DNA from: Acidobacteria bacterium RIFCSPLOWO2_02_FULL_65_29
GTDB taxonomy: Bacteria; Acidobacteriota; Vicinamibacteria; Vicinamibacterales; CAVVIG01
Direction of reading: 5' to 3'
Length of the DNA: 54,119 bases
NCBI GenBank assembly: GCA_001767435.1
Contig: MEKT01000120.1
Location: forward strand, 30,977 to 85,095
The translations under genes and the position numbers were made by a program. Position 1 is the stretch's first letter. Each line of letters starts with the position of its first letter. The notes beneath the pieces were generated by a model. The model worked only from the letters and a program-made list of their open reading frames with translations. It did no database searches and was not told the origin of the DNA. Positions 553 to 54,119 of the stretch are shown one piece after another.

Positions 553-590
553 TGCTCTCAGTGTACCTGGCCGATAAGATCAAGTAAATC

Positions 591-1916: not shown

Positions 1917-2016
1917 TGGAGGCGACAATCCTGGACGCCCAACAGTGTGGTCCGCGGTATCCTCTGTGTCCTCCGTGGTGGCGATTTTCGCGGTTGTGGC
2001 GAGCGTGACGGCTGAC

Positions 2017-2808: not shown

Positions 2809-3560
2809 CGCCCGCGCCGTCCGAAGCGCTCGGATTCGACGATGGCGGGCCTGCCCCGCCGGAGCCGCTTGGCTTTCAGACGGCGGAGGGGCCTGCCCCG
2901 ACGCAGCCGCTCGGCTTTCAAACGGCGGAGGCGGGGCCTGCCGCGCCGCAGCCGCTCGGCTTTCAAACGGCGGAGGCGGGAGAGGTCGGCCTCGCCCTCG
3001 AACCGTCGGCCGAGCTACGGCTGCCGAGCCCCGGCATCCGGCTGGCGCAGGTCCAGGAAGAGATCGTCGCGTGGGTCAAGACGCTCGTGTCGGCCGGCGT
3101 CTACGCCGTGCTCATCGTCACCTTCGGCATTCAGGTGGCGCGCGTGGAAGGCCAGAGCATGGCGCCGACGCTCGAAGACCAGGACCGGCTGATCGTCAAC
3201 AAGCTCGTGTACCGGATCGGCGAGCCGCGGCGCGGCGACATCGTGATGCTGTACTACCCGCTCGACCCCGACAAGTCGTTCGTCAAGCGCGTCATCGCCG
3301 AGGAACAGGACACGGTCAGAATCGTCGACGGTCTCGTCTACGTGAACGACGTCCCGCTGGGCGACGACTACGTGCCCGAGGACTACCGCAGCCACGACGA
3401 CTGGGGCCCGCAGGTGATTCCCGAAGGCTACTACTTCGTGATGGGCGACCATCGCAACAACAGCTCCGACAGCAGAAACTGGGGATTCGTGCCCAAGAGG
3501 TACATCATCGGCAAAGTGCAGCTCCGTTGGTGGCCCATGTCGGCGGCGCGACTGTTCTAG
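2703..3560 (+). CDS. lepB: Signal peptidase I with repeat-built N-terminal extension
   Basis: Membrane serine protease removing signal peptides from exported proteins. The peptidase part starts near residue 115: one membrane anchor (TLVSAGVYAVLIVTFGIQVA), catalytic Ser152 in VEGQSMAPTL, general-base Lys195 in SFVKRVIA, and the C-terminal box GDHRNNSSDSR. No ATG, and no convincing GTG, precedes the catalytic region; the only start that gives a full protein is TTG at 2703, inside the response regulator gene. Residues 38-95 are four imperfect 13-15-residue repeats of the type PxxPLGFQTAEAG, absent from the usual family and rich in Pro, Ala and Gly. The overlap of about 106 bp suggests translational coupling to the upstream regulator. 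The true start is uncertain; the catalytic part is not. Confidence 0.88.
   Translation: MVQPELHSEDEGREGDRDSGQPHADATAAGLSEAVAPAPSEALGFDDGGPAPPEPLGFQTAEGPAPTQPLGFQTAEAGPAAPQPLGFQTAEAGEVGLALEPSAELRLPSPGIRLAQVQEEIVAWVKTLVSAGVYAVLIVTFGIQVARVEGQSMAPTLEDQDRLIVNKLVYRIGEPRRGDIVMLYYPLDPDKSFVKRVIAEEQDTVRIVDGLVYVNDVPLGDDYVPEDYRSHDDWGPQVIPEGYYFVMGDHRNNSSDSRNWGFVPKRYIIGKVQLRWWPMSAARLF
2827..2983 (+). repeat. In-frame tandem repeat in lepB (39-45 bp unit)
   Basis: Four degenerate units, each holding a copy of a CTCGGCTTTCAAACGGCGGA-like core followed by GGGGCCTGCC, arranged so that the lepB frame stays open. Units 3 and 4 are nearly identical; the first (ALGFDDGG) is the most diverged. This points to recent unit duplication. 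Confidence 0.85.
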
Positions 3561-3640
3561 GATTTGAGGACTTGAGGATTTGAGGATTTGAGGATTTGGA
3601 GAGGCCTTGAGGCGTTGAGGATTCAAGGATTTGGGATTTG
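3561..3640. repeat. Octamer array, unit GAGGATTT
   Basis: Starts at the base after the lepB stop codon and runs as GAGGATTTGAGGACTT-type copies, decaying toward the next gene. The same unit recurs at 6513, 6625 (inverted), 11189 and 27041 (inverted). Confidence 0.9.
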
Positions 3641-3662
3641 CGGGCCCGTCGTCGTCCCTGCC

Positions 3663-4418: not shown

Positions 4419-4588
4419 CCGCTCAGAACGCTCGATCCCTCTATTCTCGCTCCGTGAGCAACCTGCGATGGTGGCGACCTTTGTCGAAGGAATGGCCATC
4501 GTGTCGGCACGGCGCTACACTGACGGCCGTCGTTCGAGTATCGGGATAGAGAGTTGAGCCGACTACTCGTTGGCCAGCTTGATTGAAA

Positions 4589-5163: not shown

Positions 5164-5182
5164 ACCGTAGTATTACCACGGT
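5164..5182 (-). promoter_or_regulatory. Palindromic operator of the mazEF-like pair
   Basis: The 19-bp stretch ACCGTAGTATTACCACGGT has arms ACCGT/ACGGT and inner GTA/TAC, leaving only three unpaired positions. It abuts the antitoxin start codon and contains TAATACT on the coding strand, which could serve as a -10 element. Autorepression by the antitoxin is inferred. Confidence 0.6.
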
Positions 5183-5524
5183 GGGAGGCGCCAGGCAAGC
5201 TGGCTCACAAGGCGCGCTGGAGCCGTCGGCGCCGGCGAGTCGGAGGCGCCGCGGCTCAGCGCTGGACACGTTTCCCTTGGTCGTGCGGGCGGGAGGTACT
5301 CTCGCGGGTCGACGTCCCAACGGTCCTCGACCACTTCCGCGATCAGGCGGGCCTCGATCTCGGGAACCAGCCGATCGACGTGGAGCACTATCGAGGAGAA
5401 GACGCCGCTGAGAAATGGGCTTCGGCGGCACGGGCACACCAGGGGCGCAAGGCCTGAGCCTCACGAATGGAGCCGACGCGCCGCGGAGGCCAAAGTCCCG
5501 GACATTATCCTCACATTCGCCTCA
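5183..5524. other. Gap without a supportable gene
   Basis: About 340 bp between the antitoxin promoter and the hydroxyacid dehydrogenase stop. A minus-strand open frame of 88 codons (5173-5439) is present but has no start context or family signature; it may be a decayed gene end. I see no RNA gene or terminator. Confidence 0.4.
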
Positions 5525-6508
5525 TCAGTACCCGACGTGCTTGTCGACAACGTTGACGAGCGGACGCCCTGCCTCGAATCGCCGCAGGTTGTCAGAAAAC
5601 AGCGCGACGAGCGGCGTCCAGTAGTCCTCCATCGCTCCTGCGATGTGCGGCGTGACGATGACATTGGGCAGGTCCCAGTACGGGCTGGCCGCGTCGAGCG
5701 GCTCTTTCGTGAACACATCGAGCGCGGCGCCTCCCAGCCGGCCGTCGCGAAGCGCCTCGACAACCGCGAGGTCGTCGATCAGCCTGCCGCGGCCCACGTT
5801 CACCAGGAGCGCGCCCCGTTTGACGTGCTCGAGCGCCTGACGGCCGACGAGACCGGTGGTGTCGGCCGTGAGCGGCGCCGAGAGCACTACGACGTCGCTC
5901 CGCGCGAGCAGCTCGAACAGGCGGTCGGGCGGCAGGGCTTCGTCGACCGACGGCGGGAGCGGCAGATCCACGCGCCGCCGGATCGCCGACACCCGCAGCC
6001 CGAAAGGCGCCGCCACGCGCGCCACTTCGATCCCGATCGCCCCGACACCGACGATGGCCATGCGCCGGCCGAGGAGCGTGCGAACCGATCCGCTCGTTTC
6101 GATTTCGTTGAGGGCCCAGACGTGCGCCGCCTGGCGTCTGAGGACCAGCGGGAGCTGACGGGCCAGCGCGATGGTGACACCTAACACGTGCTCGGCGATG
6201 GCACGCGCGCGGACACCGCGCGCGCTCGTCACGACGATCGGACTCGCGACCAGCTCGGGCCCGAGCATGCCGCCTACGCCCGTCGCGGGGCTCTGCACCC
6301 ACCGGAGGCGCGGCAGCGCCGCAAACGCCGATCGATCGATCGCCGCCGCAAAGGCGATGTCGGCCTCAGGCAGATGGCGGCGGAGGGTCTCGGCGTCCCA
6401 AGCATCGAGGAACGTGTGCTGGGGAAAGTCACGGCGCAGGTCGTCGACACACGCGCGTGGCAAGGTCCACGCAGGGCCCGCGCTGTAGACGGCGATGAGG
6501 ATGGTCAT
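5525..6508 (-). CDS. D-2-hydroxyacid dehydrogenase (NAD-binding)
   Basis: Cytoplasmic oxidoreductase of the D-isomer-specific 2-hydroxyacid dehydrogenase family; substrate not deducible. The 327-residue protein has the split catalytic domain (VQSPATGVGGM) and an inserted Rossmann domain with AIVGVGAIGIEVAR, then the catalytic triad regions: Arg in LLVNVGRGRLID, Glu in LDVFTKEPLD, and His in VIVTPHIAGAMEDY. Length and motif order are normal. It starts just downstream of a GAGGATTT array and shares strand with moaC, but 160 bp of repeats lie between, so co-transcription is doubtful. Confidence 0.92.
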   Translation of the reverse strand: MTILIAVYSAGPAWTLPRACVDDLRRDFPQHTFLDAWDAETLRRHLPEADIAFAAAIDRSAFAALPRLRWVQSPATGVGGMLGPELVASPIVVTSARGVRARAIAEHVLGVTIALARQLPLVLRRQAAHVWALNEIETSGSVRTLLGRRMAIVGVGAIGIEVARVAAPFGLRVSAIRRRVDLPLPPSVDEALPPDRLFELLARSDVVVLSAPLTADTTGLVGRQALEHVKRGALLVNVGRGRLIDDLAVVEALRDGRLGGAALDVFTKEPLDAASPYWDLPNVIVTPHIAGAMEDYWTPLVALFSDNLRRFEAGRPLVNVVDKHVGY

Positions 6509-6512
6509 GGAA

Positions 6513-6585
6513 GTTGAGGATTTGAGGATTTGAGGACTTGAGGATTTAGAACCATTTGAGGACTTAGAGCCATCTGAATATTTGT
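6513..6585. repeat. Octamer array GAGGATTT, left arm
   Basis: Copies of GAGGATTT/GAGGACTT decaying into GAGGACTTAGAGCC. Together with the oppositely oriented array at 6625-6681 it would fold into a long imperfect stem. Confidence 0.85.
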
Positions 6586-6624
6586 CACAACGTTCGACCG
6601 GCTTCCCAAATTCTCGAATGTTTC

Positions 6625-6681
6625 CAGATCCTCAGATCCTCAGATTTTCAAATCCTCAAATCCTCAAATCCTCAAATCCTC
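6625..6681. repeat. Octamer array AAATCCTC, right arm
   Basis: Reverse-complement orientation of the GAGGATTT unit (CAGATCCT, then four AAATCCTC copies). It overlaps the last codons of moaC, whose stop codon TGA lies inside a repeat unit. Confidence 0.88.
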
Positions 6682-7145
6682 CGATACGTGCCAGTTCGCC
6701 CTCCGGTCTTCTTCATGAGCCGGATGTCGCCAATCACCATCCGCTTGTCGACCGCCTTGACCATGTCGTAGATCGTGAGCGCGGCGACGGCAACGGCCGT
6801 GAGGGCCTCCATTTCGACGCCGGTCTGGGCGCGCGTCCTGACGCGCGCCTCGATGGTGTAGCCACGCGCGGTCGGCGTCAGGTCGACGTGGACGCTCGAC
6901 AGCGGCAAGGGGTGACACAGGGGGATCAGCGCCGACGTCTGTTTGGCCGCCATGATGCCGGCGAGCCGGGCCGCCTGGAGCGGGTCGCCTTTTTTCACCA
7001 TCCCGCGACGGATCTGACCGATGGCCGCGCGCGACATCCGAATCGAACCGCGGGCGATCGCTTCGCGATCGGTGACGGGCTTGTCGCCGACGTCGACCAT
7101 CTTCACGCGGCCGCGACGATCGACGTGAGAGAGACGTGTGCTCAT
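6672..7145 (-). CDS. moaC: Cyclic pyranopterin monophosphate synthase (MoaC)
   Basis: Second step of molybdenum cofactor synthesis: converts the GTP-derived cyclic nucleotide made by MoaA to cPMP. The 157-residue protein carries MVDVGDK at the N-terminus, the [16 protein letters not shown] segment, [19 protein letters not shown] and the active-site stretch MVKAVDK near the C-terminus. Length is normal, although the final RRI plus stop is encoded by the AAATCCTC array. No other moa/moe gene lies within the window. A short low-complexity gap separates it from rex upstream. Confidence 0.95.
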
Positions 7146-7158
7146 CTTTTTCCAATGC

Positions 7159-7212
7159 TCGCGGGGACCCCACCCCCGCTCGCTCTGGCGTGGGGCCCCA
7201 CCCCCACGCGAG
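7159..7212. repeat. GC-rich direct repeat between moaC and rex
   Basis: Two copies of a roughly 27-bp GC-rich unit built around GGGGNCCCCACCCCC flanked by CTCGC/GCGAG. Possible stem-loop; function unknown. Confidence 0.55.
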
Positions 7213-7285
7213 ACGCGCTCGCGCCGTGGTGCTCGCGCGTATCCAGAACAGGACGTCGCTGACGGCGTCCGGGGCTATCCGAGGG

Positions 7286-7975
7286 CTATCCGGTCTCGTC
7301 CGTTTCGCCCCGAGCGAGATAGAAGGACAGGCTCTCGAGCGACACGGTGAGGTCGACGCTCTTCAGCTTCACGCCGGGCGGCACCTCCAGGGCGCCTGGC
7401 GAAAAATTCAACACGGCCTTGATGCCAGACGCGACGACCAGGTCGACGACGCGCTGCGCCGATTCGGCCGGCACCGCGATCACGGCGATGCTCACCGCGT
7501 CACGCCGCACGAACTTCTTCAAGTCGTGAATATCGTGAATCGGCACGCCGCCACGCGACTGCTGGCCGACTTTGGCGCTGAGGCTGTCGAAGAGCGCCGT
7601 GATCTCGAAACCTTCCTGCCGGAACCCGGGGTAGTCGGCCAGGGCCAGGCCGAGATTGCCGGCCCCGATGATGGCCACGCGCAGCTTTCTGTCGAGGCCC
7701 AGAATCTGGCGGAGGTGCCGTTTGAGATCGCGGACGTAGTAGCCGACGCCGCGCACGCCGAACTCGCCGAAGTACGCCAGGTCCTTGCGAATCTGCGCTG
7801 CGTTCAGGTGGAACTGCTCGGCCAGCGCCTGGGAGGAAATGGTGCGCACGCCGGCGCCTTCGAGCTGATTGAGGCAGCGCAAATAGACCGACAGGCGGTT
7901 GGTGGTGAGCTCGGAAACCTGATCGAGGTGGGGCCGGGACTTCAGCTTAATGGCCGCTTTGTTCGGTTGTTTCAC
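7286..7975 (-). CDS. rex: Redox-sensing transcriptional repressor Rex
   Basis: Repressor that senses the NADH/NAD+ ratio and controls respiratory and fermentative genes. N-terminal winged helix (LSVYLRCLNQLEGAGVRTIS, then SQALAEQFHLNAAQIRKDLA) and the signature YFGEFGVRGVGY, then a Rossmann domain with AIIGAGNLGLAL and the C-terminal swapped-helix region (LESLSFYLA). 229 residues, normal length. The start is GTG at 7973-7975. The gene is divergent from the OPT transporter with 47 bp between them, so Rex may regulate that transporter or itself. The nuoI gene 7 kb away would be a classic type of Rex target. Confidence 0.94.
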   Translation of the reverse strand: MKQPNKAAIKLKSRPHLDQVSELTTNRLSVYLRCLNQLEGAGVRTISSQALAEQFHLNAAQIRKDLAYFGEFGVRGVGYYVRDLKRHLRQILGLDRKLRVAIIGAGNLGLALADYPGFRQEGFEITALFDSLSAKVGQQSRGGVPIHDIHDLKKFVRRDAVSIAVIAVPAESAQRVVDLVVASGIKAVLNFSPGALEVPPGVKLKSVDLTVSLESLSFYLARGETDETG

Positions 7976-7977
7976 AA
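7959..7977. promoter_or_regulatory. Possible Rex box over the rex start codon
   Basis: TTGTTCG-N5-TTCACAA resembles the Rex operator consensus TTGTGAA-N4-TTCACAA: the right half-site is perfect, the left matches poorly. It covers the rex GTG start. Weak evidence. Confidence 0.3.
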
Positions 7978-8022
7978 GCTGTCGGCCGATTGTAACAGAC
8001 TGCGGATGCTAATATCGGCGCG

Positions 8023-9975
8023 ATGACTCTTCCGGCTTCGTCCCCGTCCACGCCGTCGGCGCCCACCGTGTTCAAGCCGTACGTACCGGCCACCGAATCG
8101 CCGGCCGAGTTCACGGCAAAGGCCATTGTCATCGGCGTCCTCTTCGGTCTGCTCTTCGGGGCGTCCACGGTGTACCTGGGCCTGCGCGCGGGCTTGACCG
8201 TCAGCGCCTCGATTCCGATCGCGGTGCTGGCGATCAGCGTCCTCAAGCGGCTCGGCGGCTCGACGATTCTCGAAAACAACATCGTCCAGACGATTGGATC
8301 GGCCGGCGAATCGGTCGCTGCCGGCGTCGTCTTCACCGTGCCGGCGCTGCTCTTCCTGACGCCGTACGGACCCGCTTACTTTTCGTACTTCCAAATCACC
8401 TTGCTGGCGTTCGCCGGCGGCATCCTCGGGGTGTTGATGATGGTGCCGCTCCGGCGCGCGCTCATCGTCAAGGAACACGGCGTGTTGCCGTACCCCGAGG
8501 GAACGGCATGCGCGGACGTACTGATTGCCGGCGAACGCGGCGGAACGCTGGCGCGAACGGTGTTTCAGGGCTTAGGGGTCGGCGTGTTCTGGAAGGCGCT
8601 GTCTTGGATCATTCAGGTCTTTCGCACGGGCGTCGGCTACAGCATGTCGAGGACCGGATTTTTCCCCAACGCCACGTTGAACGTCGACATCTCGCCGGAG
8701 TATCTGGGCGTCGGCTACGTGATTGGACCGCGCATCGCGGGCGTGATGGTCGCTGGCGGCGTCCTTTCGTGGCTCGTGCTGCTGCCGCTTTTGTCGATTC
8801 TCGGTCGCTACATGCCCGAGCCGTTTCCGCCCGTGCCCGCAAGCGGCCTTCGCATCTCGGAGATGAGTCCGACGCAGCTCTGGAGCGCCTACATCCGCTA
8901 TATCGGCGCCGGAGCCGTGCTCGCGGCGGGGCTCATTACCCTCGCCCGTACGCTCCCGACCATCGTGTCGTCGTTTCGCGAAAGCATGAAAGATTTCGGT
9001 CTCAGACAGCGACAGGAGACCAAGGTGCGCACGGAACGCGACCTGCCGCTCGTGGTCGTCCTGGCGGGATCGCTTCTCCTGGCCTTGTTCCTGGCGGCTG
9101 CGCCCAGGATGCCGACGCAGGGCAACTTCCTCGCGTCAATCCTCGTCGTGATTTTTGGATTCTTTTTTGTCACGGTCTCTTCGCGGATCACCGGCCTCAT
9201 CGGCTCATCGTCGAACCCGGTGTCCGGAATGACGATCGCGACGTTGATTTTGACGTGCACGATCTTCGTCGCGCTTGGCTGGACTGGCGACTACTACGCG
9301 CCAATTGCGATCTGTGTTGGCGCGGTCGTCTGCATTGCCGCCGCCAACGCAGGTGCCACCTCCCAAGATCTCAAGACGGGCTACCTCGTTGGCGCCACAC
9401 CGGTGTACCAGCAGACGGGGTTGATCATTGGTGCGCTCGCCTCTTCGTTCATCATTGGCTTCACGACTCTCTATCTGCATCAGACGATGCAGATCGGGTC
9501 CACGTCTTTGCCGGCGCCACAGGCGACGCTGATGGCGACGATCATCAGAGGTCTGCTGAGTCAGAATCTCCCCTGGGGTCTCGTTCTGGTCGGCGTGTTC
9601 ATCGCGGTGACCCTCGAGCTGAGCGGTATCCATTCGCTGTCGTTCGCGGTCGGCCTGTACCTGCCGATCGCGACGACGGCCCCGATCTTCGTCGGAGGTC
9701 TCGTTCGCGCGTACGTCGAAAGGCAAACCGGACGAAAGGAAGAATCCGAGGTAGGCGCCGGCACGTTGTTCAGCTCCGGCTTGATTGCCGGGGGATCGCT
9801 CGCCGGCATCTTGTATGCCGTGCTGTTTGGCAGGAATCTGATCCGTGACGCCGAGGAGGTGACTGGCCTCATCCCGGTTCTTCACGAGGGCGGGTCAGGG
9901 ATGGTTTTCGGAGCACTCCTGTTTCTCGCCCTTGCGATAGTGACAGCCCGCGTCGCTCGTAGGAAAATAGGTTAG
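8023..9975 (+). CDS. OPT-family oligopeptide transporter
   Basis: Polytopic inner-membrane transporter of the oligopeptide transporter superfamily, prokaryotic branch. The 650-residue protein has about 15 hydrophobic segments, with family features such as the first helix GVLFGLLFGASTVYLGLRAG, ENNIVQTIGSAGESVAAGVV, the conserved PYPEGTACADVL and the late SSNPVSGMTIATL and QDLKTGYLVGATP loops. Substrate (peptides or metal chelates) cannot be read from sequence. It is followed 9 bp later by a secreted protein gene on the same strand, suggesting a two-gene operon, and faces rex divergently. Confidence 0.93.
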   Translation: MTLPASSPSTPSAPTVFKPYVPATESPAEFTAKAIVIGVLFGLLFGASTVYLGLRAGLTVSASIPIAVLAISVLKRLGGSTILENNIVQTIGSAGESVAAGVVFTVPALLFLTPYGPAYFSYFQITLLAFAGGILGVLMMVPLRRALIVKEHGVLPYPEGTACADVLIAGERGGTLARTVFQGLGVGVFWKALSWIIQVFRTGVGYSMSRTGFFPNATLNVDISPEYLGVGYVIGPRIAGVMVAGGVLSWLVLLPLLSILGRYMPEPFPPVPASGLRISEMSPTQLWSAYIRYIGAGAVLAAGLITLARTLPTIVSSFRESMKDFGLRQRQETKVRTERDLPLVVVLAGSLLLALFLAAAPRMPTQGNFLASILVVIFGFFFVTVSSRITGLIGSSSNPVSGMTIATLILTCTIFVALGWTGDYYAPIAICVGAVVCIAAANAGATSQDLKTGYLVGATPVYQQTGLIIGALASSFIIGFTTLYLHQTMQIGSTSLPAPQATLMATIIRGLLSQNLPWGLVLVGVFIAVTLELSGIHSLSFAVGLYLPIATTAPIFVGGLVRAYVERQTGRKEESEVGAGTLFSSGLIAGGSLAGILYAVLFGRNLIRDAEEVTGLIPVLHEGGSGMVFGALLFLALAIVTARVARRKIG

Positions 9976-9984
9976 CGCCAAGCC

Positions 9985-11175
9985 ATGGCCAACTTTAAGG
10001 TGATACCTTCGCCGCGGCTTCACAGGCTGCGGCTCGGCATAGCCGCAGGCGCTGCGGCTGTCGCTGCGGCCCTGATGACGACGACGGCGGCGACGCTCGT
10101 CGCGCAGCAATCGCCGCGGCGCGCGACCAACATTGCCGCGCTCAGGAGCTTCCCCGCGTTCTTCCACCTGCGCCCTGTTGTCGTCATCGGCAATCTGTCC
10201 CTGTCGGACAACGGCGATCTGCGCCTGGCCGACGAGACGAGCTCGGTGCGTGTGGTGTTCAAGGGCGCCACGCCAGAGGGGCTTGCCGAAGTGCGCGGCG
10301 AGTTCTGGGACCTCGGACGCATGAACGCCGACGATGCGCGGCTGGCCGGTTACGACCTGCCCAAGACCTTCCGGATCGATCCGGAAGGATCGTGGCCGCG
10401 CCCCGGAACCGTGACCGCCATCCTGGCGAGCGCCGTCGCGGAAACGACGCCGCCGTCGAGCGCGACCATTCGAGGCATGGTGCTGAACCCGGCGAGATTT
10501 CTCGATCAGAAAGTCACGGTCACCGGACAATTCGCCGGCAGAAACCTGCTGGGCGATCTCCCGGACGCGCCCGCCAAGAGCCGATACGACTTCGTGATTC
10601 GATCCGCCGATGCCGCGATCTGGGTGGCCAATCTGCGGCCCCGCGGAAAAGACTTCGAGCTGGCGCTCGACGCGCGGATCGACACCGGACGGTGGGTGGA
10701 AGTGTCTGGTGTGCTGCAGCAGGGCCGCGGCCTGCAATGGCTGGACGCGACCGGCACGGCGATCGCCTTGTCGACACCGCCCGTGGAAACAACGGCGCAG
10801 GAAACGCCGATCCGCGTACCGGCGGCTCCCGCGCCGGAGGTCGTCTTCAGTACTCCGACGTCGGAGGAGACCGACGTCCCGATGACCACGAATATCCGGA
10901 TTCAGTTTTCACGCGACATCGACGCGTCGACGCTCAAAGGGCACATCACGGTGAAGTACGCCGAGGGAAACACCCAACCGCGTGGCGAGCCCGAAGCGCT
11001 CACCACCGAATTCACCACGCAGTACCTGCCCGGCAACCGGGTGCTGGAGATTCGCTTCGCCAAGCCGCTCGAACCATTGCGGCTGGTGAACGTCGACCTC
11101 GGCGACGGCATTCTGGGGATGGACCGGCAGCCGCTGGTGCCGTGGACGCTCACCTTCACGACGGGGGCACCCTGA
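9985..11175 (+). CDS. Secreted protein with C-terminal Ig-like (Big_5-type) domain
   Basis: 396 residues with an N-terminal signal (LGIAAGAAAVAAALMTTTAA, then LVAQQ). Two beta-rich segments follow (about 45-115, VVVIGNLSLSDNGDLRLADE; about 160-260, GQFAGRNLLGDLPD and WVEVSGVLQQGRGLQWLDAT), which read like OB-fold or tRNA-anticodon-type beta barrels (inference). The C-terminal 100 residues (VVFSTPTSEETDVPMTTNIR, then IQFSRDIDASTLKGHITVKY) match the bacterial Ig-like Big_5 pattern common in surface proteins. Likely co-transcribed with the OPT transporter. Function unknown. Confidence 0.75.
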   Translation: MANFKVIPSPRLHRLRLGIAAGAAAVAAALMTTTAATLVAQQSPRRATNIAALRSFPAFFHLRPVVVIGNLSLSDNGDLRLADETSSVRVVFKGATPEGLAEVRGEFWDLGRMNADDARLAGYDLPKTFRIDPEGSWPRPGTVTAILASAVAETTPPSSATIRGMVLNPARFLDQKVTVTGQFAGRNLLGDLPDAPAKSRYDFVIRSADAAIWVANLRPRGKDFELALDARIDTGRWVEVSGVLQQGRGLQWLDATGTAIALSTPPVETTAQETPIRVPAAPAPEVVFSTPTSEETDVPMTTNIRIQFSRDIDASTLKGHITVKYAEGNTQPRGEPEALTTEFTTQYLPGNRVLEIRFAKPLEPLRLVNVDLGDGILGMDRQPLVPWTLTFTTGAP

Positions 11176-11188
11176 CGCGTGGGACGCG

Positions 11189-11268
11189 AATTTGAGGATT
11201 TGAGGATTTGAGGATTTGAGGATTTGAGGATTTGAGAATCTGAGGATTTGGAGAGATTTGGGGATTTC
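11189..11268. repeat. Octamer array GAGGATTT
   Basis: Six to seven near-perfect GAGGATTT copies, then diverged ones (GAGAATCT, GAGGATTT, GGAGAGATTT), starting 13 bp after the stop of the Ig-like protein gene. No inverted partner next to it. Confidence 0.9.
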
Positions 11269-11290
11269 TCAACGATCTCTGCGGCCTCTG

Positions 11291-11331
11291 CCCTTCGACT
11301 GGCTCAGGGTCGCCCCGAGCCCAGTCGAGGG
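11291..11331. repeat. Hairpin element CCCTTCGACTGGCTC
   Basis: CCCTTCGACTGGCTC and GAGCCCAGTCGAGGG form a stem with a short GC-rich loop. Elements with CCTTCGACT...AGTCGAAGG-like ends are widespread dispersed repeats in environmental bacteria (general knowledge). It supplies the last codons of the VWFA-like remnant. Confidence 0.6.
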
Positions 11332-11816
11332 ACGACAAGCTCAGGGCATCGCGAGCCCGCCGAGGGTCGCTTCACGCGGACCCTGACTGCGTGGAATTTC
11401 CCGTCAAACTTGCCGGTCGAATAGTACGCAAGCAGGTAGTACGACGACAGATCGGCGGTCACGCGCCGCAGTCCGGCCTCGAGATCGTTGGTGGCGACGA
11501 TGGCGAGGCCGTCGGTGGCGAAGGCGAGGTCGCGGAGCGGAACACCGTCTTCGAGCACCTCGAAGTCTTCCTGCCGCAGGTCCACGACGGGCGCGCCGTT
11601 CGCCGTTGGATAGACGTCGACGCGCACGTAGTTGGCTTCGGTGCGAAATGTCGGTGTTTGAGCGTCCTGCAGGTCGCGTCCGGCTTCAGCCGGACTCAGG
11701 AGGTCGTGTTCGGCTTTAGCCGGATTCAGGAGGTAGTGTCCGGCTTTAGCCGGACTTGTCAGGGTGACGACGACCGATGCGATGACGAGCGGGGACAACC
11801 TTCGGACCAAGCACAT
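11304..11816 (-). pseudogene. Collapsed VWFA-related protein (vWA core deleted)
   Basis: The reading frame is open (170 codons), but the protein seems to be the two ends of a much longer family. N-terminal part: signal peptide, then RTEANYVRVDVYP...VVDLRQEDFEVLEDGVP, the start of acidobacterial VWFA-related proteins. C-terminal part: FATDGLAIVATNDLEAGLRR, then SSYYLLAYYSTGKFDGKFHA and VRVRVKRP, the usual end. The von Willebrand A core with its metal site that should lie between (well over 100 residues) is missing. Three copies of a 30-bp hairpin repeat sit between signal peptide and domain, and another hairpin repeat supplies the C-terminus. It could be an expressed mini-protein, but an internal-deletion relic is more likely. 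Confidence 0.65.
11679..11757. repeat. Three tandem 30-bp units with TCCGGCTTTAGCCGGA hairpin
   Basis: Units start at about 11679, 11709 and 11739; each is TCCGGCTTYAGCCGGA plus TCAGGAGGTNGTG. The palindrome has 7-8 bp arms around a 2-base centre. In the VWFA-like frame the array encodes three 10-residue repeats (SPAKAGHYLL type). Confidence 0.85.
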
Positions 11817-11830
11817 GCCGTCGACACTCT

Positions 11831-11868
11831 ACTTGATCTTAACTTTTTACTTTTCACTTTTCACTTCC
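11831..11868. repeat. Short array ACTTTT/CACTTTT
   Basis: Copies of a 7-8 bp unit (TTTTCACT) at the 3' end of the acyltransferase gene, a sequence family related to the AGTTAAG/GTGAGAA arrays elsewhere. Confidence 0.6.
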
Positions 11869-12592
11869 CCAGGTTTTCCGCTCTCCCAGCGAGCATCTTC
11901 TGAATGTCCGCGCGGACGTGCTTGATGAGGCTGGCACGGTCGTCGAGCGTCAGGCCGGCGGTCTCGATGGGCGGGCCCACCTGCAGAGTGACGGTCACCG
12001 GCTTGATGATCCAGCTCCCCCTGCGCAGCGCCGATCGACCGCCCTGAACGGCTACGGGCACGATGGGCGCGCCCGCCTTGATGGCCATGATGAAGCCGCC
12101 CTTCTTGAACGGCAGGAGCTCGCCGGTCCGGCTGCGCGTCCCTTCGGGAAAAATCAGGAACGAATTGCCCGACCGGATCGACGCCGCGCCGGCTTCAATC
12201 GAGCGCAGTGCCGACTCCCGGTTTCGGCGATCGATCGGGATGAAGCCGCCAAGGCGGAACGAACGAGCCAGGACGGGAATCGCGTCGATCTCGTGCTTGT
12301 AGAGGATGTGCATGCGCGGGTGGAGCGCGTCGAACACCACCGGCGGATCGACGTTGCTCTGGTGGTTCGAGCAATAGACGGCCGCACGATCGCGGGGAAT
12401 GTGCTCGCGGCCCACGACGCGGTAGCTGATCCCCGAGAGCGCGAGACCGAGCCGAACGCCGGCATGCCCGAGCACGTAGAGAAGACCCTTCCAGCGAAAG
12501 GCGAGCGCCAGGAGCATTCCCGGCGGGCCGACGATCAGGACGTAGAGGGAAACGAGGACGTACGTGGCGAGGGACCGAACGGCGGCCAACAC
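11861..12592 (-). CDS. plsC: 1-acyl-sn-glycerol-3-phosphate acyltransferase (PlsC family)
   Basis: Membrane enzyme acylating lysophosphatidate in phospholipid synthesis. The 243-residue protein has a hydrophobic N-terminus (LATYVLVSLYVLIVGPPGML), acyltransferase motif I NHQSNVDP (H-x4-D), motif II region GGFIPIDR, motif III FPEGTRSRTG and motif IV IVPVAVQG. Length is usual. It ends at an ACTTTT array and begins next to a long AGTTAAG array, so it is probably a single-gene unit. Confidence 0.9.
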   Translation of the reverse strand: MLAAVRSLATYVLVSLYVLIVGPPGMLLALAFRWKGLLYVLGHAGVRLGLALSGISYRVVGREHIPRDRAAVYCSNHQSNVDPPVVFDALHPRMHILYKHEIDAIPVLARSFRLGGFIPIDRRNRESALRSIEAGAASIRSGNSFLIFPEGTRSRTGELLPFKKGGFIMAIKAGAPIVPVAVQGGRSALRRGSWIIKPVTVTLQVGPPIETAGLTLDDRASLIKHVRADIQKMLAGRAENLGK

Positions 12593-12613
12593 GGACGGAT
12601 GATACTAGACGGG

Positions 12614-12727
12614 AAAGTTAAAAGTGAAAAGTCAAAAGTTAAAAGTTGAGAGTTAAGAGAGTTAAGAGTTAAGAGTTAAGAGAAGTTAAGAGTTGAAAGT
12701 TAACAGTGAGAAGTGAGAAGTGAGAAC
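12614..12727. repeat. Heptamer array AGTTAAG / GTGAGAA
   Basis: More than a dozen units that drift from AGTTAAAAGT through GTTAAGA to GTGAGAA over 110 bp. With 12781-12817 (reverse-complement units CTTCTAA) it brackets the carD terminator and would extend the terminator hairpin into a long imperfect stem. Confidence 0.88.
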
Positions 12728-12732
12728 CTGAG

Positions 12733-12772
12733 CAAAACAAAAGCCCGCCGCGTAGTTCTTACGTCGGCGGGC
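12733..12772 (-). terminator. Rho-independent terminator of carD
   Basis: On the minus strand GCCCGCCG pairs with CGGCGGGC (12743-12750 with 12765-12772), extended by CGTA/TACG, and is followed by TTTTGTTTTG. Correctly placed 43 bp after the carD stop. Confidence 0.85.
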
Positions 12773-12780
12773 CGCGTTGT

Positions 12781-12817
12781 CCTTCTAACTTCTAACTTCC
12801 AACTTCTTAATTTCTCA
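12781..12817. repeat. Heptamer array CTTCTAA (inverted partner of 12614-12727)
   Basis: Units CTTCTAA, CTTCTAA, CTTCCAA, CTTCTTAA. It reaches the carD stop codon (12815). Confidence 0.8.
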
Positions 12818-13417
12818 AGAGGCTCGCGCGGCGCGGCGCGTTGCGGCTGCGGCCACCGACGTGACCGGCGGACGCGGAGCGACCTTGGCGACCTTCGCGC
12901 GCGGGGGCGGGGCCATCCGCGCCTTGGTCGTGAAGCACCGCTCGAGCGCGCGGTCCACGCGGCCTTCGATCGCCACGGCCGTTTCCCGCATCACTTCCGA
13001 GACCTCGGAGATGATGAGGAACTTCGCCCGATCGAGCATCCGTTTTTCGCGGAACGACAGGCTCTTGGACTTCGCAAGAAACGTCAGGCTCTTGAGGACG
13101 TCGGCGACCTCGTAAATCGAGCCGCTGCGCATCTTGTCGGAGTTGTCCTTGAAGCGGCCCTTCCAGTTCTGATGGCTGTCGATCTTCCCGTCGCCGAGCA
13201 GGCCGAACAACCGTTCGACTTCATCGTCGCCGATCGCGCGGCGGAGGCCGACGCCGTCGACATTGGCGAGCGGCACGAGCACGGTGGTGTCGTTGGCGAC
13301 GATGCGAAGATGGTAAAACCCGCAGGTCGTTCCAAGAATGGTCTTGTCCTCAATTCGTTCTACGACGCCCAAACCATGGTTCGGGTAAATGACCTTGTCG
13401 CCGACTTCGAATGTCAC
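12815..13417 (-). CDS. carD: CarD-family RNA polymerase-binding transcription factor
   Basis: CarD/CdnL-type regulator that binds the RNA polymerase beta subunit and stabilises open complexes, mainly at housekeeping promoters. Start GTG at 13417 (VTFEVGDKVIYPNHGLGVVE) is chosen because AGGGGGAA lies 4 bp upstream; an upstream ATG at 13474 would add 19 unlikely residues and overlap the promoter. N-terminal Tudor-like RID domain (residues 1-60), then a helical DNA-binding domain with LSFREKRMLDRAKFLIISEV. The C-terminal 40 residues are Ala/Pro/Arg/Lys-rich and disordered. It has its own promoter (13476-13505) and terminator, so a monocistronic unit. Confidence 0.93.
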   Translation of the reverse strand: MTFEVGDKVIYPNHGLGVVERIEDKTILGTTCGFYHLRIVANDTTVLVPLANVDGVGLRRAIGDDEVERLFGLLGDGKIDSHQNWKGRFKDNSDKMRSGSIYEVADVLKSLTFLAKSKSLSFREKRMLDRAKFLIISEVSEVMRETAVAIEGRVDRALERCFTTKARMAPPPRAKVAKVAPRPPVTSVAAAATRRAARAS

Positions 13418-14634: not shown

Positions 14635-15447
14635 CTACAAATCCATCATCAACCTGAAGAGTGGCAGCAACACGGCGAGGAGCCCGAGAAACACCCACGC
14701 CATTCTTCTCGACCACGCGTCGGCATACCAGATCACCCACAGCAGTGGCAGCGTCCAGAGCGCCGAGCCGATGAGAGAGGCGAGCACGGGGCCCGTCGCG
14801 GGCAGCGCCGGCTTGATGCCGCGCATCGCAAAGCGGGGCCAGGGATGGCGCCACGTCTGGATGATGTCGACCAGCATGTACGCGCAGACAAAGGCCAGCG
14901 ACAGCCCACGATTCCAGGGGTCGTTGAGAATCTGCTCACGGAGCGTCTGTCGACGGCCACGGCCCTGGAGCGCGTCGATGAGCGCATCGATCTGCTCTCG
15001 CGTGAGCGGAGCCACCGGGCGCGGCGGCGTGGGGTCGGAGGCGGTCGCTCGCCCCCTCTCCGCGCGAGCCGAGTCGGCTTGCCCCGCTTTCGCTCCATCA
15101 GCGGCGGGGCGATCGTCCCGGGCTTGCCCCGCCGTCGCTCGCCTGGACTCTGAGCGAGCGTCCCGGGCTTGCCCCGCCGAAGCTCGCTGAGGATCCTCGC
15201 GAGCGTAGGCGGGATCGCGCGGCGCCTGGGGAATCGCATGCCGCAGGCCGGTCTGCAGAATGGTGCTGTACGCGTTGTTGATCACCCGAAGGCGATCGTT
15301 GGCCTCGGCCTTGCCCTGCGGGTCGTTGGCGAAGCGGTCCGGATGCCAGCGCCGGACGAGGGCCTTGAACTGGCGCCTGACTCTGTGCAGCGACGCGCCC
15401 GGCCGGAGGCCGAGGACGGCGTAGGCGCTGCGAATCTCATCCGGCAT
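14635..15447 (-). CDS. J-domain membrane protein with repeat linker
   Basis: 270 residues. The N-terminal J domain (residues about 4-65) has YAVLGLRPGASLHRVRRQFK and the HPD motif (WHPDRFANDP) needed to stimulate DnaK ATPase. It is not a full DnaJ: there is no Gly/Phe region or zinc domain. Residues about 80-150 are a low-complexity linker with repeated AGQARD segments (ASAGQARDARS, ATAGQARDDRP, AKAGQADSARA) encoded by a DNA repeat. The C-terminal 100 residues contain about three membrane helices (PVLASLIGSALWTLPLLWVI, MAWVFLGLLAVLLPLFRLMM). It likely recruits DnaK to the membrane; target unknown. Confidence 0.85.
   Translation of the reverse strand: MPDEIRSAYAVLGLRPGASLHRVRRQFKALVRRWHPDRFANDPQGKAEANDRLRVINNAYSTILQTGLRHAIPQAPRDPAYAREDPQRASAGQARDARSESRRATAGQARDDRPAADGAKAGQADSARAERGRATASDPTPPRPVAPLTREQIDALIDALQGRGRRQTLREQILNDPWNRGLSLAFVCAYMLVDIIQTWRHPWPRFAMRGIKPALPATGPVLASLIGSALWTLPLLWVIWYADAWSRRMAWVFLGLLAVLLPLFRLMMDL
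15040..15190. repeat. In-frame repeat in J-domain gene (GGCTTGCCCCGCC)
   Basis: Three units with the core GGGCTTGCCCCGCCG flanked by GCTCGC/GCGAGC blocks, spaced about 40-60 bp. The core resembles GGGCCTGCCCCGCC in the lepB N-terminal repeat, so both linkers may derive from one dispersed repeat family. Confidence 0.65.
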
Positions 15448-26973: not shown

Positions 26974-27040
26974 TCGCAGTCGAGCTCGCCTTCGAGCCAG
27001 TGATGGCAGCGGGGCACATCAGTTGCCCGACCAGCGGCTC

Positions 27041-27072
27041 CCTCAATCCTCAACTCCTCAAATCCTCAAATT
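27041..27072. repeat. Octamer array AAATCCTC
   Basis: CTCAATCCTCAACTCCTC then AAATCCTCAAAT, directly downstream of the stop of the PQQ-propeller gene at 27075 (minus strand). Confidence 0.85.
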
Positions 27073-27074
27073 CG

Positions 27075-28550
27075 CTATTTCGCCCTGATATCGAACGCCG
27101 CCATCTCACGGACGTTGCGCACGAGCAGCCGTCCGTCGGCGATGACGGGATGGTTCCAGGTCTTGCCGTCGATGGCCGCGAATCGCGCGATCTCCTCGTG
27201 CCGTTCCGGCGTCGCCTTCACGAGCACGACCTCGCCATCCTCGGTCAGCACGATCAGATGGTCGCCGGCCAGCAGGACCTGACCGTAGCCGTAGCGGCCG
27301 CCCTTCCACTTCAATTCTCCGGTCGCGGCGTCGATACAGGCGAGAATCGACTCGTCCAGACCGTAGAGGTAGCCGTTGTGCAGAAGCGACGTCGTGAACT
27401 TGTTCTTCATCCTCCGATTTTCCCAAACCGTCCGCGCCGAGAGCGCGTCGCCGCTCCGGGTCACCTGAATGACGCTCGCGCCGTGGTCATATCCCGCGGA
27501 CAGGAACACGCGATCGCCGTCGAGCAGCACGGGCTGGGCGACGTTGATGCCCATGTTGGTCTGCCAGGGATACTCCCAGAGCAGTCGCCCGTCGGCGGGG
27601 GTGAGGCCCATCGCCCGCGTGGCGCTCACGACGAGAATCTGGCGGACACCGGCAATCGTGACCAGCATCGGCGACGTGTAGGCCTGGCGGTCGTCGAGCG
27701 ACGACCAGGCGAGCTGGCCGGTCAGCCTGTTGTATGCCACCACTGATTTGCCGCGAGGCCCTCCCGGCAGCACAATGACCGTGTCGTCGACGACGAGCGG
27801 CGAAGCCGCCATGCCCCAGTCGAGATTCGCCGCGCCGTTCTCGTCGAGAATGTTCTTGCGCCAGATGACCGCGCCGGTCGCCGCGTCGAGGCAGCGGAAT
27901 TCACCGAGGGCTCCGAGCGCGTACACGCGGCCCTCGTGGTAGGTGGGCGTGGCCCGTGGACCGTTGCCGCCCATGCCTTCGACGAACTCGCCGTCCCAAC
28001 TGTTGGTCCACAGTTCGCGGCCTGACTCGACGTCGTAGGCGGACGCGATTTCCTGCCGCCGCCGCTGCTCGATCGTGAACGCGCGGCCGTCGGCCACGAC
28101 GAACGAGGCGTAGCCGAGGCCGATCGGCTGCCTCCACAGGCGGGGCAATCCGTCTTTCGGCCAGTCGAGGCGAATCGGCGCCGCGTCGTAGCGGCCGCTG
28201 CGGTGCGGGCCTCGGAAATCCGGCCACGAGGCTCGCAGCGGTGCAACCGACGCTGACGCCGGCGCGGCGACGGCTGACGTTGGCGACGGCGACGCCCCGC
28301 TCTCCACATCCGGTACTGGGCCGCGAGAGGGCGGCGCTGGCGCCGAAGGCGCTGCCGTCGGCATGGGCTGCCGACGCTGCCTCGCCCGATCGGCCTCGAG
28401 CGCGTCGTAGTCGGGCGCGCTCGACAAGAAGCGCGGGATCACGCCGCTGCCATCGGGCGCGAGCCGAAACCCCGCCATGTAGAGTCCCACCAAGGCGGTA
28501 GCCACGCCAATCGCGACAGCCATCGCCGCGAAAGCGACTTTCTTGACCAT
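27075..28550 (-). CDS. Membrane-anchored PQQ-type beta-propeller protein
   Basis: 491 residues: N-terminal membrane anchor (VAFAAMAVAIGVATALVGLY), Pro/Ala linker (about 60-105), then a beta-propeller. The blades show recurrent motifs: DVESGRELWTNS, LDAATGAVIWRKN, NRLTGQLAWSS, IDAATGELKWKG; each [DN]xxTGxxxW turn marks one blade. N-terminal WPDFRGPHRSGRYD is the usual entry motif. Propellers of this kind (BamB- or dehydrogenase-like) rarely bind PQQ; no catalytic residues can be assigned. Divergent from the related gene at 28585 with 34 bp between the starts. Confidence 0.85.
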   Translation of the reverse strand: MVKKVAFAAMAVAIGVATALVGLYMAGFRLAPDGSGVIPRFLSSAPDYDALEADRARQRRQPMPTAAPSAPAPPSRGPVPDVESGASPSPTSAVAAPASASVAPLRASWPDFRGPHRSGRYDAAPIRLDWPKDGLPRLWRQPIGLGYASFVVADGRAFTIEQRRRQEIASAYDVESGRELWTNSWDGEFVEGMGGNGPRATPTYHEGRVYALGALGEFRCLDAATGAVIWRKNILDENGAANLDWGMAASPLVVDDTVIVLPGGPRGKSVVAYNRLTGQLAWSSLDDRQAYTSPMLVTIAGVRQILVVSATRAMGLTPADGRLLWEYPWQTNMGINVAQPVLLDGDRVFLSAGYDHGASVIQVTRSGDALSARTVWENRRMKNKFTTSLLHNGYLYGLDESILACIDAATGELKWKGGRYGYGQVLLAGDHLIVLTEDGEVVLVKATPERHEEIARFAAIDGKTWNHPVIADGRLLVRNVREMAAFDIRAK

Positions 28551-49753: not shown

Positions 49754-49811
49754 AGGTTGCTGAAAAGCCAGCAACCTGAAGTGAGAAGTGAGAACTGAGA
49801 AGTCAGAAGTT
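49754..49811 (+). repeat. REP-like hairpin plus GTGAGAA array (plus orientation)
   Basis: AGGTTGCTG-AAAAGC-CAGCAACCT (perfect 9-bp stem), followed by GAAGTGAGAAGTGAGAACTG-type heptamers. Paired with the opposite copy at 49884-49944. Confidence 0.85.
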
Positions 49812-49883
49812 TTGGGTTTAGACGGAATCCAGAGGTCAAGGGTTGCCACGACCTAAGACTCGAACGAAACCTGGCCAGATTTC

Positions 49884-49944
49884 GCAGTCCTTCTAACTTC
49901 TCACTTCTAAGTCTTCACTTCAGGCTGCGTTCGTCAGCAGCCTG
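49884..49944 (-). repeat. REP-like hairpin plus GAAGTGA array (minus orientation)
   Basis: Minus strand: CAGGCTGC-TGACGAAC-GCAGCCTG (perfect 8-bp stem), followed by GAAGTGAAGACTTAGAAGTG-type heptamers. The hairpin begins at the base after the TAG stop of the PQQ-propeller gene (CTAG just before it). Confidence 0.85.
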
Positions 49945-51586: not shown

Positions 51587-52171
51587 AGCCTACCCGCCCT
51601 ACCCAGCCTACCTGACTTACGCGACTTTCCCTACCCGGCCCGCCATCGGCTCCCTGCAAGTCTGCTTCGTGTTTTCGTGGCTGACCGTACACGTCTTCTT
51701 CGTGACCTCGTGCCTTCGCGGCCCTTTTTCGTATTTTCGGGTTTTCGTGGCTCTTCTTCGTGTCTTCGTGCCTTCGTGGCCCTTTTCGTGGTTTCGTGGT
51801 TTCGTGGCTCTTCTTCGTGTCTTCGTGCCTTCGTGGCAGCAGGGGCCTCCGGCGATCGCGCCGAAGGGCTGTCACTGGCAGGGGTGAGAGGGGATCCTCC
51901 AAAGGAGGATGAACGAACGGATAAGCCCGGATCGTAGTCGTCGGCCGGCCGTTTCCGGCCACGCGCTCCCGGCTTTCCTTCAGCAGCCAGTCGCACGACC
52001 GAACGACCACAATCCGGTGGGCCGCACAATGGCCGGCCCGTACTCGAGAACGAGGAGTCCGAACGATTGACCCCCAGAGCAAGCGTCGTGCCGCGCTCGA
52101 ACGGCCGTAAGTGCGCGTAAATTGGACGCGAGCCGGAGGAAACCCGCGGATTTTTTCGAGGGGTGTGGGGA
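51587..52171. other. Intergenic region with CTTCGTGT octamer arrays
   Basis: About 585 bp without a gene. From about 51700 to 51842 it holds some fifteen degenerate copies of the units CTTCGTGT, CTTCGTGC, CTTCGTGG and TTTCGTGG. The same phrase recurs at 54030. The remaining 330 bp contain nothing I recognise. Confidence 0.75.
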
Positions 52172-53192: not shown

Positions 53193-53256
53193 GCAGGACT
53201 GAAGTCCTGCACTACATCGCTGCATCGCGCAGCGCGGGGCAGGACTACAGTCCTGC
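53193..53256. repeat. Two GCAGGACT-hairpins upstream of the cupin gene
   Basis: GCAGGACT-GA-AGTCCTGC (53193-53210) and GCAGGACT-AC-AGTCCTGC (53239-53256), both 8-bp perfect stems with 2-base centres. They lie 60-120 bp upstream of the cupin gene start, in its leader or promoter region. Confidence 0.85.
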
Positions 53257-53314: not shown

Positions 53315-53791
53315 ATGAAACCAACCTGCCTTGCCCTGTTCGCCGTTTCGATCGTCGCTCTCGGGCTGACAGTCTCCGCCCAAACGCCGGCGTCGTCGCT
53401 CCCGGCCACCTACGTGAGCAACGCCGATCTCTCGGCTGCGCTCAAGAAGGCGACCGAGGCCACTCCGAACATGTCCACGGCCAATGTGAAGAACTCGGAT
53501 CAGTACCGCATCAACATCGTGCATCGCGGGAGAAGCGCTGGCGCGCTGGCGCACGTTCCGGGCACCGAACTGCATTACATCATCGAGGGCGCAGGCACGG
53601 TCGTCACCGGGGGGCGGATCATCAGACCAGCATCCGGTGCCGGCGGCACGGCGACGATCGAGGGCGGCGAAACACGTCGCGTGGGAAAAGGCGATGCGAT
53701 TCTGATCCCGGAAGGCACGCCGCATTGGTACAAGGACGTCGAGGGATCGATCACCTACCTCGAAGTGCGCTTCAACGTTCCCGTCAAGTAA
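53315..53791 (+). CDS. Secreted cupin-domain protein
   Basis: 158 residues: signal peptide (LALFAVSIVALGLTVSAQ), then a single small cupin barrel. Cupin motif 1: GALAHVPGTELHYIIEGAGT with conserved His/Glu metal ligands, motif 2: GDAILIPEGTPHWYKDVEG with His. No named activity; metal-binding periplasmic cupins are diverse. Monocistronic by context: hairpin repeats upstream, array downstream. Confidence 0.9.
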   Translation: MKPTCLALFAVSIVALGLTVSAQTPASSLPATYVSNADLSAALKKATEATPNMSTANVKNSDQYRINIVHRGRSAGALAHVPGTELHYIIEGAGTVVTGGRIIRPASGAGGTATIEGGETRRVGKGDAILIPEGTPHWYKDVEGSITYLEVRFNVPVK

Positions 53792-53793
53792 CG

Positions 53794-53902
53794 TGAATCG
53801 GGTAATTGGATAATCGAGTAATCGAGTAATTGAATCGCGCGACGGCGTCTTTCAGCGGGATTGCTCAATCACACAATTCAATTACCCGATTACCCAATTC
53901 AC
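53794..53902. repeat. Inverted pair of TAATCGAG / CAATTACC arrays
   Basis: Left arm 53794-53838 (GGTAATTGGATAATCGAG, TAATCGAG, TAATTGAA), right arm 53866-53902 (CAATCACACAATTCAATTAC then CCGATTACCCAATTCACC). The arms pair over most of their length. It starts right after the cupin stop codon. Confidence 0.88.
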
Positions 53903-53911
53903 CGTCAGCCG

Positions 53912-53966
53912 ATAGTCCGCAGTTGACAGTTCACCGCGGCGCAAGTGTCAACTGTCGACTGTCCGC
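53912..53966. repeat. Hairpin CAGTTGACA / TGTCAACTG with flanking GTCCGC
   Basis: CAGTTGACA (53920-53928) and TGTCAACTG (53946-53954) form a perfect 9-bp stem. On both sides repeated units (CAGTTGACAGTT, GTCAACTGTCGACTGTC) make it another heptamer-type element. Confidence 0.8.
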
Positions 53967-54029
53967 GATCCCCGTCCGTCTCAGACCTGCCCGGCAGGAC
54001 TAGCGACGTGGCTATTGAAGCCGCGGAGG

Positions 54030-54060
54030 TCTTCTTCGTGTCTTCGTGCCTTCGTGGCTA
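54030..54060. repeat. Octamer array CTTCGTGT at a gene end
   Basis: CTTCTTCGTGTCTTCGTGCC then TTCGTGGC, directly abutting the stop codon of the partial gene at the right edge. Same units as 51700-51842. Confidence 0.85.
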
Positions 54061-54119
54061 GAACTGCCACAGCCTGTTCACCTTCACCACAAACGCGCGA
54101 TTCCTGAGGCCGGGGAAGC
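54058..54119 (-). CDS. C-terminal end of a gene running off the window
   Basis: Minus-strand reading FPGLRNRAFVVKVNRLWQF and a TAG stop at 54058-54060. The strand-like end with a terminal aromatic residue resembles an outer-membrane barrel end, as in TonB-dependent receptors or DUF5916 proteins common in acidobacteria. Too short for assignment. Confidence 0.5.
   Translation of the reverse strand, partial: FPGLRNRAFVVKVNRLWQF

Follow-up and report, generated by a model that had tools for sequence, protein, structure and literature searches.

The two inverted repeat-array pairs behind the cupin gene are, we are nearly certain, just two among the intergenic 7-8-nt tandem arrays of many unit families that occur throughout this acidobacterial genome, and the focal site is not special within it. 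We consider it probable that these arrays were written locus by locus as independent tandem expansions of shared words at gene edges, and that facing pairs are incidental. This explanation draws on the number, periods, polarity and position of the arrays, the unit family shared by both edges of a gap, the lack of covariation between arms, the swapped units and empty sites seen across genera, and a hairpin retained at one site.

Within the window, by which we mean the whole 54,119-nt stretch of DNA analyzed, the cupin gene ends with TAA (53789-53791) and lies 266 nt from a minus-strand stop (54058), and the gap between them has the array order > < > < < (Table 1). The convergent frame is a putative gene, since the window holds only its last 19 residues. 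Read directly, pair 1 consists of AATCGGGTAATTGGATAATCGAGTAATCGAGTAATTGAATC (about 53796-53836) and the facing ATTCAATTACCCGATTACCCAATTC at a spacing of ~40 nt, with ~4.4 octamers in the left arm and ~2.6 in the right. Pair 2 has just two to three heptamers in each arm; its core, CAGTTGACA (53920-53928) and TGTCAACTG (53946-53954), is a perfect 9-nt inverted repeat nested in a 24-nt imperfect inverted repeat (79%). A sequence-only reading of this DNA had described two consecutive inverted repeat-array pairs 3' of the cupin gene, built from different units, and our results bear this out: the pairs are real by direct reading and by folding, and their units are the octamer GGRTAATY and the heptamer CAGTYRA. 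The spacing of within 10 bp given there is correct (7 nt) if a weak outer match from 53908 is counted, and too short if measured to the core of pair 2 (17 nt). That reading did not include the third array, which can also be read as TCTTCGTG and adjoins the minus-strand stop.

Folded as single-stranded DNA, positions 53780-53980 (201 nt) reach -36.1 kcal/mol, compared with a mean of -25.3 (sd 2.95) for dinucleotide shuffles, none of 200 of which was as good (z -3.67). Searching this stretch against its own 5.5-Mb genome returned 69 matches at E≤0.001, itself included. There was no match in the plasmid collection, and Rfam at gathering thresholds found nothing but one tRNA in the whole window. 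The inner arm ends of pair 1 read CGCGCGA (53836-53842) and TCACACA (53869-53875), with three CG steps opposite CA, a pattern that decay of CG in one arm would give.

Table 1. Arrays and neighboring features of the window
Feature	Position	Strand	Remarks
GAGGATTT array	3551..3641	+	at stop of signal peptidase gene 2703-3560
GAGGATTT facing pair	6510..6685		between g6672 (stop inside array) and predicted start of g5525, 6508
GAGGATTT array	11181..11262	+	3' of stop at 11175
AAAGTNA/GAAGTNA facing arms	12614..12817		flank terminator-like hairpin on both sides
GAGGATTT array	27038..27086	-	at stop of gene 27075-28550 (-)
GAAGTNA facing pair	49778..49912
Cupin-domain gene	53315..53791	+	ORF; Pfam Cupin_2 33.6 bits, cut-off 27.2
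Pair 1 left arm, octamer family GGRTAATY	53796..53835	+	sense strand, 4 nt past cupin stop
Pair 1 loop, between both arms	53836..53875
Pair 1 right arm, reverse-complement octamers	53876..53900	-
Pair 2 left arm, heptamer family CAGTYRA	53918..53935	+
Pair 2 right arm, facing CAGTYRA	53944..53966	-
Third array, TCTTCGTGTCTTCGTGCCTTCGTGG from 54033; (CACGAAGN)n on sense strand of convergent frame	54033..54056	-	ends beside stop of that frame
Convergent reading frame, 3' end (FPGLRNRAFVVKVNRLWQF*)	54058..54117	-	putative gene

In regard to the array population, we sampled the window together with forty 20-kb stretches (853,602 bases after exclusion of N, ~854 kb) and found 238 short-period arrays, 118 with period 7, 73 with period 8, 15 with period 14, 7 with period 15 and 25 with other periods. 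Periods 7, 8, 14 and 15 thus account for 213 of the 238, some period-15 arrays resembling GC-rich coding repeats; a triplet-shuffled control yielded five arrays in total and none with these four periods. At face value this extrapolates to ~1,370 arrays per genome, a density that may be overestimated because the sampled stretches all come from contigs matching the focal site. Coding sequence makes up less than half of the array in 188 of the 213, according to a simple, uncurated codon-usage finder (774 genes at a coding fraction of 0.88). Greedy clustering grouped the units into 35 families, 17 of which have only one or two members. Most families have no GGG on either strand, and the focal arms hold at most one or two GGG tracts by reading; a quadruplex-type GGG unit with four G tracts was found neither in the focal arms nor in most families.

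The arrays of a family nearly always keep a common polarity. In a census of ten words, which were picked from families with visible pairs and which all show facing pairs, 51 gaps were '><', none was simple '<>', one was '><>' and one '<><', and an unsupervised tally found no family with partners on both sides. Among 251 arms, same-family neighbors within 200 nt comprised 52 '><', 0 '<>', 3 '>>' and 4 '<<', and different-family neighbors 5 '><', 2 '<>', 5 '>>' and 2 '<<'. Probed with another word, the CAGTYRA family gave 15 '><', 2 '<>' and 1 '><>' here, and 1 '<>' in relatives. Different-family neighbors that still face each other occur at L051 4612-4776, L050 8491-8652, L069 9524-9646, L048 7559-7642 and L065 6061-6179, and such arms help separate polarity from hairpin formation.

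Polarity goes together with position, most arrays being directed away from a gene into the intergenic gap. For the 157 of 213 arrays that could be placed (known-polarity family, intergenic, a gene on each side), and with array edges blurred by some bases, the 79 '>' arrays are nearer the left gene (61:17, median distance 3 nt) and the 78 '<' arrays nearer the right gene (65:11, median -2.5 nt). Single arrays number 83: 51 occupy sense-strand positions at a stop, 14 occupy antisense-strand positions at a start, and 18 break the rule. When a gap opens with '>' and closes with '<', both arrays belong to the same family in 48 of 55 cases, against an expected 12%, and to different families in seven; outward arms at the two ends of one gene have a family in common in just 1 of 21. 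The purine-rich strand is on the left in 88:16 cases here and 25:12 (2 ties) in relatives. Because this preference is so much weaker in relatives, the polarity rule is one per family rather than a chemical one, and purine-rich-left does not hold universally, with 12 exceptions among the relatives' 39 cases. Supply of a stop codon fits GAGGATTT and GGGTAATC, judged from the words alone, and was rejected as the general cause of polarity since CAGTCAA and TTCAGAG have no forward-strand stop.

A facing layout past stop codons might be expected of bidirectional terminators or 3'-end stabilizers, in which the arms would form a post-stop RNA hairpin with its fold under selection. The distribution among gaps of at least 60 nt agrees with such a role, arrays being present in 19 of the 51 convergent gaps and in 88 of the 280 co-directional ones, as opposed to 12 of the 76 divergent ones, as does the focal stretch folding better than its shuffles. 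Yet no terminator-like site (GC-rich stem, then T run) was found in 53600-54119, arrays of the ten words point in one direction only in 114 of the 173 gaps that have them, and loops fold no better than control gaps (mean z -0.35 for 33 loops, -0.24 for 97 gaps). Together with the lack of covariation between arms, in a test with the power to find it, this leaves a terminator function quite unlikely in our judgment.

The pairing of arms is central to how the facing pairs are understood. Across nine families, own arms paired no better than arms taken from different elements (p 0.45 to 1.0), and over 48 pairs in nine families own-arm pairing was 0.588 against a null of 0.604 (p=0.985), with a mean rank of 0.595 where chance gives 0.5. 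This test used the arm plus half the loop, tolerated transitions, and omitted pairs with overlapping arms and the AGGGCAA family (two pairs only). In a power control, mirrored arms were still detected at 30% simulated substitution (arms only, no indels). Neither hairpin maintenance nor mirror copying is supported by these comparisons. The proposal that the elements are "copied as structures" is not supported: compensatory changes between arms were not detected, and the arms behave independently, which the sequence-only reading had itself named as the contrary outcome. What survives of its idea of one architecture in differing sequences is the layout, which recurs in many unit families and can outlive its sequence; the hairpin as the thing kept or copied does not.

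Fold-back template switching, in which a single post-gene array would be copied across the gap as its mirror image, could account for the family common to both edges in 48 of 55 gaps and for the likeness in pair 1 that extends a few bases beyond the units (GAATCGCGCGA / TCACACAATTC). It predicts, however, that own arms should be more alike than those of other elements, which they are not although mirroring was detectable at the substitution level above (no indels simulated), and inner flanks show no pairing (p=0.72). We find it an improbable origin for these pairs, about as improbable as a terminator role.

Elements resembling MITEs or REPINs, mobilized whole by a transposase acting in trans, would be dispersed between genes as these arrays are, and could explain a facing pair where the genes of relatives abut. 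Many-copy short inverted repeats between genes are also a likeness to REP/REPIN, whose definition is not known to include 7-8-nt tandem units. Short motifs such as GAAGGAC and GGCGA recur at inner arm ends, and loops are somewhat alike within families near the arms (untrimmed, 7.32 within and 5.76 between families; best 16 and 14). Once trimmed by 10 nt per side, however, loop cores are hardly alike (6.35 and 5.63; best 10 and 13) and outer flanks are unique beyond ~6 nt, so homologous whole elements of the MITE kind were not found, and whole-element transposition with homologous loops was rejected. The rarity of same-family arms flanking one gene (1/21) also speaks against mobile elements, as does the absence of any match in this genome to the REP transposase Y1_Tnp (PF01797), for which 5 of 14 control genomes are positive. 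We therefore regard mobilization of whole elements as very unlikely. As for a telomerase-like reverse transcriptase, this genome has a single match to RVT_1, and it is a group II intron maturase; the result covers reverse transcriptases within the reach of RVT_1. Ku is present, which proves nothing.

We thus return to independent expansion at gene edges. An array would be born by tandem expansion of one word, drawn from a shared vocabulary, beside a gene end. Of the gaps scored, 173 in all, 48 carry one word at both edges, oppositely oriented, and these arms may have been written separately, with no copying of one from the other. If so, the hairpin is a by-product and neither the unit of copying nor that of selection. 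The writing step may be slippage of a seeded word or templated addition. The result would be a tolerated spacer 3' of genes, and at some sites the array may provide the stop codon and extend the 3' untranslated region. Several points count against this explanation, namely the 18 rule breakers among 83 single arrays, the two different-family '<>' neighbors, the '<>' cases of CAGTYRA, the sharing of variants in some families, the sites where related genera keep one family, the G017 array that contradicts the rule and the likeness of loops near arms.

Variation within arrays is concentrated at fixed unit positions (TAGTCGN, GAAGTNA, TTCAGAN, CAGTYRA and GGRTAATY), and most other positions are 0.8-1.0 conserved. 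The last position of TAGTCGN is T in 0.50, A in 0.31 and C in 0.17 of units, and the variable position of GAAGTNA is T in 0.53, G in 0.23, C in 0.13 and A in 0.11. In four of eight families, neighboring units agree at the main variable position no more often than expected (GAAGTNA 0.38 vs 0.36, TTCAGAN 0.46 vs 0.44, and also CAGTYRA and GGRTAATY). Sharing exceeds expectation in TAGTCGN (0.52 vs 0.37), at position 2 of TNGGGRC (0.63 vs 0.45), at position 5 of AGGGC (0.78 vs 0.60) and at position 1 of GAAGTNA (0.73 vs 0.58), and GAGGATTT is intermediate. These data are mixed, since slippage alone should give sharing everywhere and constraint or loose templating should give none.

Plain replication slippage from chance seeds, with no common process behind it, is a further candidate origin. 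Slippage of heptamers was proposed in earlier studies, according to PMC4679880 (section 3) and PMC4692102 (discussion), and the varying array lengths and the neighbor variants shared in some families are in keeping with it. It fits poorly with the four families lacking neighbor correlation and with identical words on the identical strand at many loci, GAGGATTT being found in Bacteroidota records as well. It also fits poorly with the array units of relatives (83 in all), 48% of which differ by no more than one base from a word on a hand-made list for this genome, compared with 24%, and at most 36% in 200 trials, for letter-shuffled units. We hold slippage from chance seeds to be unlikely.

Comparison with related genera shows how arrays differ at the same gene ends. 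Window positions 61-13417 are syntenic with 15 related genomes from 11 other genera, and a 16th stretch, L203, showed no synteny with this region. Past the signal peptidase gene, arrays are present in 5 of the 14 genomes that have the gene, counting this one, with GAGGATTT here, TGGGGAC in G010, a TNGGGGC facing pair in G005, TCGGGAT in G014 and a short CCAGGCA array in G002; those of G010, G005 and G014 are related words. Behind the glutaminyl cyclase gene, G010 has a GGGTAATC facing pair and G016 a TTCAGAN facing pair past the stop, and G006 has an array at +90 past the stop (GGGTGATG on the other strand), while no array was detected there in the remaining 13 of 16 genomes. Among cupin orthologues of at least 50% identity, an array was detected in only one of six (G026, 58% identity), where a TAGTCGN array begins with the gene's own stop codon. 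Since one gene end can carry different words in different genera, the layout can outlive the sequence.

Words can thus change under a retained layout, beside sites with an inherited word and many array-free sites. One family is kept at g6672 (GAGGATTT-like in G000, G010 and G020) and at g61 (GGGATTN in G000 and G006), so that part of the pattern is plain inheritance. The g5525/g6672 junction measures 0-2 nt by tblastn ends in G016, G017 and G026 (three genomes, two genera) and 163 nt here, with a GAGGATTT facing pair containing the g6672 stop codon; the GAGGATTT family is present in short form in G010 and G020. Between g11861 and g12815, a GC-rich hairpin after an A run, resembling a terminator of the minus strand, was seen by eye in 8 of 11 relatives, seven of them with no detected array, and here AAAAGCCCGCCG..CGGCGGGC is retained between two arms. 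Break-and-replace of the whole gap was rejected because this hairpin survives between the arms. The G017 array at g12815, beside the hairpin, is an exception to the rule, since on the sense side of the stop it is C-rich.

Arrays of GAGGATTT also occur outside this phylum. Exact scanning of a genome contig collection, from which this genome or very near ones may be missing, yielded 58 stretches with GAGGATTT x3.5. By title these are mostly Bacteroidota, many of them Saprospiraceae, and others include Thiomargarita, an Acidobacteria MAG, Gemmatales, Verrucomicrobia, Clostridium, Methanogenium and more. Block orders in these records were 16 '><', 27 '>', 40 '<' and 0 '<>', and the strand polarity of the octamer family GAGGATTT is maintained in Bacteroidota records. 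The 16 '><' cases are spread over 14 records and nine genomes. By title, these genomes all belong to Bacteroidota groups apart from the Acidobacteria MAG (L143), which is probably no close relative (best cupin match 37% identity). With open frames of 120 codons as a rough proxy for genes, the outer edge of a block coincides with a long-frame stop in 37 of 102 blocks and the inner edge in 9.

It is conceivable, although we think it very doubtful, that a trans-acting templated activity adds one word tandemly to the DNA of gene edges, in every case running 5' to 3' toward the interior of the gap. Both edges would receive the same word, one base per unit would be read with low stringency, and at least one word recurs in different phyla. 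If this were true, the arrays would document the action of a telomere-like machine that adds repeats inside bacterial chromosomes.

The arrays belong with the convergent heptamer arrays described in Xanthomonas, as a variant that spans many unit families and includes octamers. The STRR heptamers of cyanobacteria are likewise tandem units in which one position varies. The Xanthomonas GGGAATC/GGGNATC heptamer arrays, as far as the accessible sections of Rehm et al. 2015 (PMC4692102) go, are mostly intergenic with degenerate positions and lie after stops on the coding strand or before starts on the non-coding strand, mostly within 50 bp; neighbors on opposite strands converge in 70 cases in Xcc and 75 in Xac, and function was left open. 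Degenerate intergenic heptamers, the same stop/start strand layout and facing pairs are shared with the arrays described here: we find tandem 7-nt intergenic units, the gene-end strand layout (51 + 14 of 83) and facing pairs, with focal pair 1 itself being octameric. In contrast to the one G-rich, quadruplex-prone family described in those sections, this genome has many families, octamers among them and many without G runs, and our analysis adds a test of arm independence and a word that differs across genera at one gene end. The Nostoc GGGGA(C/T)T arrays, for which the same sections report few facing pairs, are likewise tandem heptamers with one variable position, and GGGGACT is a rotation of the TGGGGAC variant of this genome, where facing pairs are common.

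TAACTGA direct repeats occur in Beggiatoaceae, Cyanobacteria and Bacteroidetes according to the available part of MacGregor 2015 (PMC4679880), and resemble our arrays as intergenic heptamers that abut a codon of the neighboring gene and are spread over unrelated phyla. Its main genome has one word, mostly just 5' of starts and with one inverted case, whereas arrays here are mostly past stops and often facing. The same part describes Microcystis as carrying various heptamers that are often mixed, which makes multi-word genomes a known phenomenon. The letters of the GAGGATTT array were not found in the literature text searched.

Earlier papers, in the sections available (PMC4692102, PMC4679880), treat heptamer arrays largely word by word, leave their function open and mention slippage among possible causes. 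In the present genome, many words follow one layout rule, and related genera use different words at the same gene end. Origin has now become testable, because any model must cover the fixed strand, the shared word and the independent arms jointly. An effect of the arrays on 3' ends would, by extrapolation, reach several hundred genes per genome; if there is no such effect, they would be a large class of directional neutral DNA.

Repeats of other kinds also occur in the window. A different kind of palindrome lies 5' of the cupin gene, where positions 53193-53256 hold two GCAGGACT(GA/AC)AGTCCTGC palindromes that are 94% complementary as a pair. CTTCGTG arrays lie inside a 57-nt tandem repeat of 2.5 copies at 51694-51837, and 45-nt tandem repeats containing GCCTGCCCCGCCG or GCTTGCCCCGCCG are present at 2847-2980 and 15076-15206. 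The palindrome GTCCGGCTTTAGCCGGAC, tandem at 30 nt in 11671-11756, is also found 3' of the orthologous g9985 in G021 (L198), with a similar one in G026 (L205) and a different palindrome behind g9985 in G016 (L196).
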